64,000 nt of DNA from Auricularia sp. M13. Its lineage: Eukaryota > Basidiomycota > Agaricomycetes > Auriculariales > Auriculariaceae. How positions within the stretch are numbered: position 1 is the first letter of the stretch; each line of letters begins with the position of its first letter. The stretch is taken from positions 1,612,001 to 1,676,000 of the forward strand of contig CM073198.1 of assembly GCA_037042915.1 (NCBI GenBank). Direction: 5' to 3'. The notes beneath the pieces are model-generated. The model did not search any database. It had not been told where the DNA came from and was given only the letters and a program-made list of their open reading frames with translations. This document shows, piece by piece, positions 41,934 through 50,644 of this stretch. A program made the position numbers and the translations under genes.

Positions 41934-46200
<4,267 letters not shown>

Positions 46201-46276: not shown

Positions 46277-48378
46277 ATGCTCGCCATTCGACACAACGAT
46301 ACGCGCGGCCGTGGCGTCTACGGTGCGCAATTGACTCGGATTTTATAATACTTACTGATTATATTGCAGCTACGAGCGCGATCGAGCCTCAGACAGTCGT
46401 CGAGCGGTCGCCCGTACTCTTATTTGACAAGGAAGAATATGAAACCCATGGCAAGTATACAATATTGGACCATTACACGTTCAACTGGAAGGTCGGCCGC
46501 ATGGCACTGGCACTGGGACTTGGTAAGGCATCCATGTTGTATACAGCAACTCTAACGCGGCATCCAGGCTCGCTCTTCAATCATTCCGCAAGTCCCAACA
46601 CTTCATTCACCCTCAAGCCACATCCGGACACACCTACTATTGAGTTCACCGTTCTCCGACGCGTAGAACCCGGAGAGGAGCTCTGCATATTCTATGGCCA
46701 CAAGTTGTGGTTCACACCAGACAACGAGGCCGATAACCCGCAAATCGCAGCCACCGACGATGACGAGGACCCTTTCGATTTACTCAAGATGCCCGAAGAC
46801 ATTGAACCCAAGGATACTGTCCAGACCAGTGCGTGAGGTGAGCCGTCCTCCAGAGCACAGTGTCCAAACGACCGTCTTACAGTTGAAGCATGGGTCCTCG
46901 ACGCGCCGCATACGCGCGACGTCAACGCTCTTCTTGGGTGAGTGAGTATAGAAAGATATTGGACATCACAGTGCCGACAACGACTCGGAACGTGTCCTTC
47001 CCTGTCCTGGCGACAATAATCCCGCAACGGATCCCCACCTGAACATCCTTTCTTTCCCATCCTCCTATTCCACCCATCATTTCCACGACACCCATTCGTT
47101 CTTTTCATGCATGCAATCATTCATGCAGTCATTTCTTTCTCCAGCAGTCGGATGCTGGTTGCAAGCCGCTCATCTGCCAGCCGCAGCGATACCCGCGGCG
47201 CTATCATCGCAGCACTTGGTCGTGACGTGCTGCGAGGCTTGCTGTGACACCCTCCCGCATTTCAGCGACTCGGAGTATGTTGTCGCCTGCCGTCCTTTTA
47301 GGCAGTCAGGGGCCAGGCGACTCCTAGTTTCAAGCATTGCTATTCTCTATGTCCGTCCTGCCGCAACCAACATCTAACTCTCCTCTCCTGCAGTTGGACG
47401 CGCCGTGCAGGCCTCGACCGCGAATTGCGACACCTGAAGCGAATCCGGCGCATACAAAACGATGGCGAAGAACCTCGTACGCACATCCCGTCGCCTTTGC
47501 TACGTGATCCTAATACACCGCGCAGGAATATCCCTCCTGCTCTGCGCCGCCAATACGCCCGTTCCTCCACTACCAGATGAATACGCCAGCGTCGTTCCGT
47601 ACACGCTGGCGGTTCCTGCGCGCCCGGCGCTCACAATGGCGCATCTCGCGCTGAAGAACGCCGTCTGGCCAACAGTCTACGCGCCCGTGCGCCCGGACCC
47701 GGACGAGGTGCGCGCGACAGCGTGGACATCTGCGCGCCGCGCCTGGGCCCGGGAGTGCGTCCGCGAGGTCGTGCGGATCGCCGAGGCAGCGAAGGAGGCC
47801 GGGGAGGTGCGTCTAGATTACACCCCATATAACGCGGGTAACGCGCTGGACTGACGCGCTATACCTTGAAGATTCCCAGCGCGGCGCTCCTCCCGCGCAA
47901 CGTGGGCGAGGACGAGACGTCCGGCGCCGTCACAGCGTCGACGCACGACACGCGGACGAGTGAGCAGCATCCTCTCCGCCACGCCGTGATGAACCTCGTC
48001 CGCCTGGTCGGCTCGTTGCACCAACACCAAAATCAAAGTCATGGTGACAACGAGAATAAAACAGCGTACGTCGCCGCACTCATCCTTCACGCGCATCTGA
48101 CTTCCAAACTCTGCAGCGCGGCGTCGGCGGAGTACTTCCTGACGGGCCGCGCGCTCTTCCTGACGCACGAGCCGTGTGTCATGTGCTCGATGGCGCTCGT
48201 GCACTCGCGTGTGCGCGATGTCTACATCCTGCGACCGATGCCGCAGACTGGCGGTGCGGGCGGTGAATTGGGCAGGATGGTCGTTGGCCTGCCGAACATC
48301 AACCACCGATACCGCATCTGGAGGTGGAACGGGGTGTCGCATCCTGAACTGGATATTTCGGACAGTTTAGATGCCTGA
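46277..48378 (+). CDS. TAD3: SET domain fused to tRNA adenosine deaminase subunit Tad3/ADAT3
   Basis: Exon 1 (ATG 46277) MLAIRHNDTRGRGVY joins in phase to ATSAIEPQTVVERSPVLLFD, KEEYETHGKYTILDHYTFNW and RMALALGLG, then SLFNHSASPN and VLRRVEPGEELCIFYGHKLW: the N-H-S and Y-G motifs of a SET methyltransferase domain. A 53-nt intron of correct phase leads from DIEPKDTVQT to IEAWVLDAPHTRDVNALLG, the usual start of ADAT3. A 456-nt intron follows, then WTRRAGLDRELRHLKRIRRI, ISLLLCAANTPVPPLPDEYA and the deaminase core: RHAVMNLVR, where ADAT3's Val replaces the catalytic Glu of H-A-E, and LTHEPCVMCSMALVHSR with the zinc cysteines. The end GLPNINHRYRIWRWNG is typical. With Tad2 it should make inosine-34 in tRNA anticodons. 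The target of the SET part is unknown. Confidence 0.9.
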
Positions 48379-49080
48379 TCTGCTGTCGAATCTTGTGTGA
48401 ATTGTTGTGCTGTCTATATAGTTTTGTTATTGACGGAGAAATGTACTTTACAGAGTCTATTCATGACCACCCATGGTGCTTTGTCTTTTCCAAAGCAATC
48501 TTTTCATATATGAAGATAGATCCAACCCAGGATCATGATTTGCTGTGTTCTCCAAAAAATGGCCTAGCAGCACCTCAGTCTCAGGGGTTTTGATTTAAAT
48601 TTTAGACAGCATAAGCAGGTGGTAGCAGGCTACCAAGCATCCTCCCAAGATCCTTTGGAGGTGTACAACACCTCCAAGGCTCAATGGAGGACGAGCAGGG
48701 GTGTAGAGGGATCTAGTGCACTGGTGTGAATGGTGGGAGGAAAGAGATGTAGGATTTCGGTCGACGGGTGCAGGGACAGAAGGTAATATTCCGTTTGTCT
48801 ACGCGTACGGACACGGTTGCGGACAAACGGATACCGGAATCAGGGGCAACTCCGATGCCCATATGAACGGAGCACGGACACAACCCGAAAGATAAGATAG
48901 AATTCTCGGGTCACGAGAAAACCGTGCGCGGGGTCTGTGCGCAGCAGTAATCCTGCCCTAGAAGACTGTTCAGACATCCTAGAATGATTGTTGAGGGTCA
49001 TTCCAGTAGCTTACACCTACCCGCACATGTCTGTGTGCACAAACCTATCAAACCTTAAAAACTGGCCAAGATATTGTCAA
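48379..49080. other. AT-richer intergenic start of the transposon island
   Basis: Base composition shifts to AT-rich after the TAD3 stop. No gene seen. Contains CCTCCAAAG/CCTCCAAGG near 48655-48680 and CCGTTTGTC...GACAAACGG near 48793-48842, a small inverted repeat. Confidence 0.4.
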
Positions 49081-49103
49081 ATTACTGGTTTCAAGTTCCG
49101 CGC

Positions 49104-49362
49104 GCATGTTGCGCACGTTGCGCACGGATGCGCACGGACTGCGCACGGATTTTTCACACTGCGCACGAAAGTTGAAATCATGCGCACGGATTGTAAATCT
49201 GTGCGCACGGATGAAGGACGACTGCGCACGGATTGTCATTTTGTGCGCACGACATTTTGGACCCTGCGCACGGATGTTAGAATCATGCGCACGGACATGG
49301 TAGACATGCGCACGGACATGCTGACACTGCGCACGGATGTTGTGTGTTGCGCACGGATTCTG
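49104..49362. repeat. Minisatellite array 1 of GCGCACGGA motifs
   Basis: About 14 copies of the core TGCGCACGGA, with variants ending GAAAG or GAC, mostly spaced about 20-24 bp. The TGCGCA core is palindromic. The array leaves a plus-strand frame open with a heptad L/M-R-T-D-x-x-x. Confidence 0.9.
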
Positions 49363-49554
49363 TATAAAGCACAACTGCATTATTTTTTTCACATTGGCAC
49401 ATCTAGGCGACTTGATTGAACTCATTGAAGTTCATTAACAAACACCAACAATTTCCATAAGTCTTGTTGCAATTGACTGCTCAAGTACAGTTTGTTAATA
49501 CACTACAGAATGTAGTAAACACAGGTAGAAGTGCCCACAAAATGGATGTCTATG

Positions 49555-49628
49555 ACTGGATTTGAACTGAGGGTGTTTTGAATCCGTTAAGAACATGTAC
49601 ATGTTAACCACTAGTCCAAACTACAGAA
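49555..49628 (-). mobile_element. tRNA-like head of a probable SINE
   Basis: On the minus strand, TGGACTAGTGGTTAA (49604-49618) resembles a Pol III A box and AGTTCAAATCC (49558-49568) a B box, with normal tRNA-like spacing. The T-stem does not pair well, so it is not a functional tRNA. The body would extend towards lower coordinates; its end is not resolved. Confidence 0.5.
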
Positions 49629-50299
49629 AATACATCCTGGTAACTTGAGTATAATATAGTGTGAGCGTGCAAGTCCCTCTGTGAGATGGCATGGTGAGGA
49701 TGAGGTTGGAACCCATCTAATCAACAAGAAGATCTGAAGGGATGGGATGGTGGTGTGATGCAGGAGAGTGAGCACCTCTGTGGTACAGAGGTGGTGGAGC
49801 AGACACAGCATGGCTTGTTCCAGGTCCACTCCACGGCCCAAAACACGTGTCTCGTCTCTCCTTGACCCAGACAATTCATTTGAGATTTTTTGACCAAACT
49901 GGGATCAGGGCTTAGAATCTATTAGTAGATGAGTGAATCATGGTTACTCAGGCTGCAAAGGATATTACTCCTAAATTCATGAACCAAAATAACATAAGTT
50001 CTAACCTTAGCAAGCTTAATCTAACCTAACATAACATAACTGTATGAGGGTAACATCTTTTGAGTTATGAGTACCTACTCAGAGCCTCTTCAGGAAATCA
50101 GCTTAGAACACAAACCGACATGCTGGCTGAATATTTCTGATCCTGTACTAACGTGGAAGTGAAATTTCGAACAAATCAAGTAGCACAGTAGTTTATCTAA
50201 AAAAGTTGATACTAGAGATGTGCACCTCTATCAATGCACACAGTGCCATAAATACATCTATGATATACATCTTCAAATGATTTTTGATGTTTTTCACAC

Positions 50300-50571
50300 T
50301 GCGCACGGATTTTGTAATTTGCGCATAGATTGTGAAAACTGCGCACGGATATCAGGAGCCTGCGCACGGATTGTGAAAATTGCGCACGAAAGCACATTTC
50401 ATGCGCACGGACGACCAGGACCCTGCGCACAGATTTCAAAAAGTGCGCACGGACATTTGGACCCTGCGCACGAAAGTTAAACTCATGCGCACGAAAGTTC
50501 TAACCCTGCGCACGGAAGTTCTGCGCACGGATATTCTTGCGCACGGATGCGCACGGACCCTGCGCACGGTT
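50300..50571. repeat. Minisatellite array 2 of GCGCACGGA motifs
   Basis: About 15 copies of the same TGCGCACGGA core as in array 1 (variants GCGCATAGA, GCGCACAGA, GCGCACGAAAG), spacing again near 21-22 bp. Preceded, like array 1, by TTTTTCACAC. Ends at TTTTCTAGGG. Confidence 0.9.
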
Positions 50572-50644
50572 TTCTAGGGGTCCAGAATTCTCACACTCCC
50601 CTTTGGACGTGCAGAGTGAATACTCCCCTTGGAACCAGCAGCGG

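Follow-up and report, generated by a model that had tools for sequence, protein, structure and literature searches.

A single gene joining a SET domain to the tRNA deaminase subunit Tad3 is the best explanation for a region of the window, the whole stretch of 64,000 nucleotides of Auricularia sp. M13 DNA analyzed here. The gene probably encodes one two-domain SET-Tad3 protein, whose parts are connected through the splicing of intron 3. Both halves belong to known families; the new part is the joining of SET and Tad3, and the product is probably a two-domain fusion with a putative functional link. The placement of SET and Tad3 in one gene, proposed in a preliminary description of this DNA, is favored by exons in phase, the lack of an unspliced start codon for the deaminase part, a spacer of 46 nt, and one locus for each half. 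It is weakened by the branch point at the junction, the weakest of the gene, and by separate first exons that can be drawn for Tad3.

Gene anatomy and surroundings

The anatomy of the SET-Tad3 gene is established as an open model. The gene lies on the plus strand, with the ATG at 46277 and the last base of the stop codon at 48378; the start and stop codons fit the extent given in the preliminary description. The hand-built model contains eight exons (Table 1), which form a coding sequence of 1335 nt for 444 amino acids with zero internal stops. All seven introns follow the GT-AG rule and show lengths of 47, 45, 54, 456, 49, 65, and 51 nt. A broken gene is ruled out by the eight exons without a stop or frame shift.

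Table 1. Features of the SET-Tad3 gene (positions in the window)
Feature	Positions	Strand	Remarks
Exon 1	46277..46322	+	Start codon; SET motif GRGVY at 46307-46321
Exon 2	46370..46522	+	SET domain
Exon 3	46568..46828	+	LFNHSASPN 46573-46599; EELCIFYG 46675-46698; acidic linker; DPFDLLKMPED
Intron 3 (SET/deaminase junction)	46829..46882	+	54 nt; GTGCGT...TTACAG; in-frame TGA 46834-46836; no perfect CTRAY
Exon 4	46883..46937	+	IEAWVLDAPHTRDVNALLG when the junction codon is included; the ADAT3 N-terminal domain probably starts here
Intron 4	46938..47393	+	456 nt
Exon 5	47394..47476	+	RHLKRIRR (47428-47451), putative ADAT3 N-terminal domain
Exon 6	47526..47806	+	Remainder of the putative ADAT3 N-terminal domain, then start of the deaminase domain
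Exon 7	47872..48065	+	Deaminase domain; pseudo-active HAV (HAVM codons 47980-47991)
Exon 8	48117..48378	+	Deaminase domain; PCVMC 48172-48186; C-terminus, stop
Internal in-frame ATG	46789..46791	+	Close to the end of exon 3; possible Tad3-only start given an internal transcript

Intron 4 is far longer than the other six introns of the gene (45 to 65 nt). Its single match in the genome is itself, which rules out a recent repeat copy. It could be a candidate site of an internal Tad3 promoter.

A cullin gene on the minus strand (45396-46200; Pfam Cullin, E 1.5e-20) is oriented divergently from the SET-Tad3 gene. A gap of 76 nt separates the divergent ATG at 46277 from the probable cullin start codon, whose first base is 46200, and suggests a two-way promoter shared by both genes. 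Just 3' of the SET-Tad3 gene lies a dispersed repeat of 1.68 kb (48908-50584) with 8-bp direct repeats, GAATTCTC, on both sides, starting at 48900 and 50585. The element has short inverted ends, located around AGAAAACCGTGCGC, and contains arrays of TGCGCACGGA. Among the 50 matches listed, at least 18 copies besides the element itself cover bases 1-1516 or more of the 1601-base query, 17 of them with 92-99% identity and one with 86%. The repeat looks like a non-autonomous DNA transposon, perhaps hAT-like.

Identity of the two halves

The identities of both domains are established. The Pfam SET domain is found at residues 11-110 (E 7.3e-15, 55.7 bits against a cut-off of 22.4) with the motifs GRG (11-13), NHSASPN (71-77), and ELCIFYG (104-110). 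With the whole protein as the query, the nearest PDB relative of this half is 5h6z (E 1.2e-33), which we take to be Set7 from S. pombe. In a search of PDB chains only with the SET part as the sole query, 5h6z is matched with an E of 8.5e-35 and 123.2 bits, followed by vSET with 36.1 bits. The half can therefore be named more closely than in the preliminary description, as a Set7-like domain by sequence. Without splicing, the SET frame encodes 155 amino acids, and the Set7 match spans 149 of these 155, which makes the unspliced frame a complete Set7-like protein by itself. The SET half contains the residues expected in an active enzyme, and it would thus be predicted to act as a methyltransferase. 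S. pombe Set7 is an H3K37 methyltransferase according to the title of the corresponding study (Structure 2019, cited in PMC9145779). Since this nearest solved relative is reported to methylate a histone, the predicted substrate of the SET half may be a histone rather than the editing complex. None of the 15 other SET matches of the genome is found among the best-candidate matches listed for the SET-Tad3 protein with an E of ≤1.

The tRNA-editing enzyme to which Tad3 belongs is essential. In the second half, the Pfam deaminase domain PF00383 is found at residues 273-395 (E 1.3e-8, 35.1 bits against a cut-off of 25). The related Pfam family MafB19-deam is also above its cut-off (30.7 against 27 bits), and the sole NCBIfam match, TadA, lies under its cut-off (38.9 against 150 bits). 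Among PDB sequences, the ADAT3 chain of 9hmm matches residues 126-427 with an E of 1.8e-20, and the deaminase part also matches chain 3 of 8aw3 and the TAD3 chain of 7bv5. Chains 7nz7_B and 9hmm_B are taken here to be mouse ADAT3, and 7bv5_C is presumably TAD3 from yeast. The pseudo-active site HAV, in place of HxE, comprises residues 330-332, and the zinc-ligand motif PCVMC comprises residues 377-381; both the HAV site and the zinc-binding C-x2-C had been recognized before.

The start of the ADAT3 N-terminal domain is less sharply defined. The N-terminal region alone matches 9hmm with an E of 0.003 from HLKR onward, the part before it being weak, and a phmmer match obtained without the SET part likewise starts only near HLKR. 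In a global alignment, the region upstream of HLKR is nearly gap-free in comparison with mouse ADAT3 (53 versus 54 residues), and its score is reached by 22 of 2000 shuffles, which indicates weak homology of the exon 3 tail and exon 4. The phmmer alignment of the whole protein sets DPFDLLKMPED, which precedes the junction within exon 3, close to the strand of residues 25-33 in mouse ADAT3, and this weak match may represent the N-terminal strand of the subunit. According to PMC8216470, residues 25-33 of mouse ADAT3 join the deaminase domain's central sheet, and both the binding of tRNA and its deamination depend on the ferredoxin-like domain that follows this strand.

A genome search with the SET-Tad3 protein, in which the best candidates were scored, establishes a single locus and the presence of Tad2. 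Four of the five rows correspond to this locus, and the fifth, with an E of 0.029, is Tad2. The catalytic Tad2 is located on another contig in the open frame C1:2508380-2508559, which shows HAE and PCIMC and matches ADAT2 with an E of 2e-19. These best-candidate matches include no second copy of either half; a second, normal Tad3 or Set7 elsewhere was likewise sought and rejected within them.

The junction between SET and deaminase exons

The preliminary description had placed a junction intron of 53 nt near 46831-46884. In the gene model, this intron, with the donor GTGCGT and the acceptor TTACAG named there, occupies 54 nt at 46829-46882. Its length is divisible by three. The deaminase exon lies in the frame of the SET part, from which a single TGA (46834-46836) separates it; without splicing, this stop is reached two codons beyond the junction codon, in agreement with the early stop predicted before. 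The splice had also been called phase-perfect. All exons are in phase, but a compatible intron arises by chance as well: among 5000 dinucleotide shuffles of 46786-46905, 239 contain an in-frame GTRNGT...YAG intron, and 757 do so if a looser donor is allowed. Because shuffled sequences can also offer a compatible intron, the phase fit is modest evidence and not decisive. GTGCGT also serves as the donor of intron 6 of the same gene, and in the neighboring cullin gene, a GTGCGT...CAG stretch, read by eye, is spliceable likewise. With respect to the perfect CTRAY branch point, intron 3 is the only one of the seven introns without it, its best site being CAAAC.

The chief support for the fusion is that the N-terminal part of the deaminase has no start codon available unless splicing occurs. 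In the unspliced sequence, the TGA at 46834 closes the frame of exon 4 on its upstream side and a TAG at 47299 closes that of exon 5, and neither exon can be entered from an ATG. The distance from the stop of the SET frame to exon 4 amounts to 46 nt, which would leave little room for a terminator and a promoter. The start codon argument is weakened by alternative first exons, which can be drawn from 13 ATG-donor pairs without the true start that are joinable in phase to exon 4 or 5. Seven of these pairs lie in the SET frame (including ATG 46789), four in another frame of exon 3, and two inside intron 4.

The pair starting at ATG 46789 would allow two genes that overlap: a free Set7-like gene that stops at the TGA at 46836 and a Tad3 transcript starting inside the SET gene, with MPEDIEPKDTVQT joined to IEAW via the same intron. 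This arrangement appears unlikely. It agrees with the in-frame position of the ATG and with a SET frame that is complete without the fusion, and TAD3 of Fusarium graminearum is described with two transcripts from alternative promoters, although the same protein is encoded (PMC11087585). It would, however, require a promoter within coding sequence, and the start at ATG 46789 cuts into the possible, weak match to the ADAT3 N-terminal strand.

A Tad3 gene independent of the SET gene, beginning with a first exon of its own or at a later start codon, is judged quite improbable, even though three options are formally open. The first uses either of two ATGs in a different frame of exon 3 (46694 or 46760) and joins the donor at 46833 to exon 4; it needs a promoter in coding sequence together with a long out-of-frame overlap. 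The second starts at ATG 47111 or 47123 in intron 4 and joins the donor at 47275 to exon 5, whereby exon 4 is dropped. The third starts at ATG 47462 and reads through intron 5; it lacks HLKRIRR and the beginning of the N-terminal domain, a domain described as needed in mouse for binding and deaminating tRNA (PMC8216470).

A fusion by another junction, in which the donor at 46833 is joined to exon 5 and exon 4 is skipped within a 561-nt intron, is very unlikely. This form keeps the frame (...DTVQTSAWTRRAG...) with the donor GTGAGG and makes use of the branch-point-like CTAAC of intron 4, but it loses IEAWVLDAPHTRDVNALLG, which preserves a nearly gap-free spacing relative to mouse ADAT3. The score of the alignment before HLKR is reached by 61 of 2000 shuffles for the skipped form, compared to the 22 with exon 4, which is a small difference. 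That the SET exon is linked to the deaminase by some form of splicing is more probable than the exact form of this link, since the two likeliest alternatives also splice from exon 3.

Proposed role and relation to known systems

In the preferred one-gene reading, the C-terminal ∼300 residues would be the Tad3 of the cell, pairing with Tad2 as the carrier of the active site. Together, Tad2 and the catalytically dead Tad3 part (HAV) would convert A34 to inosine in tRNAs. The N-terminal ∼115 residues would form a compact Set7-like SET domain, followed by an acidic linker of ∼20 residues leading to Tad3. Splicing through intron 3 would yield the fusion mRNA, and retention of this weakly marked intron would end translation at the TGA at 46836 and yield a free SET protein of 155 amino acids. 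The likeliest role, and thereby the presumed benefit of the joining, would be to couple the level and location of a Set7-like methyltransferase to a tRNA enzyme that the cell needs constantly. By analogy, a module in front of the Tad3 N-terminal domain could tether the methyltransferase to the editing complex or merely share its expression, and a link between methylation and anticodon editing, as suggested in the preliminary description, would be hypothetical. A splice switch is a doubtful extension of this model. Here, the retained intron would give a free Set7-like chromatin methyltransferase, and its removal would place SET-Tad3 on the wobble-editing complex, where it would methylate the complex or a nearby translation protein and couple S-adenosylmethionine or developmental state to anticodon editing.

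A SET-Tad3 fusion was not found in the titles and abstract beginnings among the literature matches listed, a scope that excludes most subscription journals. PMC2474616, a study of ascomycete SET proteins, does not use the word "deaminase" in its main text, and "SET domain" is absent from the main text of PMC11087585. Pattern searches of viral contigs gave 28 matches with the whole protein and 145 with the SET alignment, and one scan of prokaryotic genome contigs with the SET alignment gave 84, with none confirmed in any of the three. As these collections consist of viruses and prokaryotes, they are uninformative on the distribution in fungi; a wide occurrence of the fusion in fungi, or a mention in protein databases, is possible.

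The SET half resembles Set7 (5h6z) over nearly the entire solved chain, with 45% identity and the motifs GRGV, NHxxxPN, and EELC..YG all kept. In contrast to the solved Set7 chain, which comprises 169 amino acids and contains no deaminase, the SET domain here is joined to Tad3. The vSET protein of PBCV-1 (PDB 1n3j) is also a minimal SET domain (E 5.4e-8 with the SET part alone) but is viral, free-standing, 119 amino acids long, and more distant than Set7. The ADAT3/Tad3 chains 7nz7_B, 9hmm_B, 7bv5_C, and 8aw3_3 share HxV, PCxxC, HLKR(I/V)R, and probably an N-terminal domain before the deaminase domain with the predicted protein; these solved chains of 317-369 amino acids match the deaminase half only.

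A functional comparison is offered by the Tad2-Tad3-Ame1 mRNA-editing complex of Fusarium graminearum, as described in PMC11087585. FgTad3 is presented there with a tRNA-binding domain at its N-terminus in addition to a deaminase domain, and Ame1 binds the former, which converts the tRNA editor into an editor of mRNA. In Fusarium, this part of Tad3 is thus already reported as a site where a partner changes the target of the editor (PMC11087585). Both systems feature an extra module at this domain; Ame1, a DUF726 protein, binds as a separate molecule, whereas the SET domain is covalently attached in the predicted fusion. Given this precedent, an enzyme fused in front of the Tad3 N-terminal domain would be testable by simple domain removal. 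The covalent joining of SET and Tad3 would hint that, somewhere in fungi, wobble editing is connected with the methylation of chromatin or proteins.
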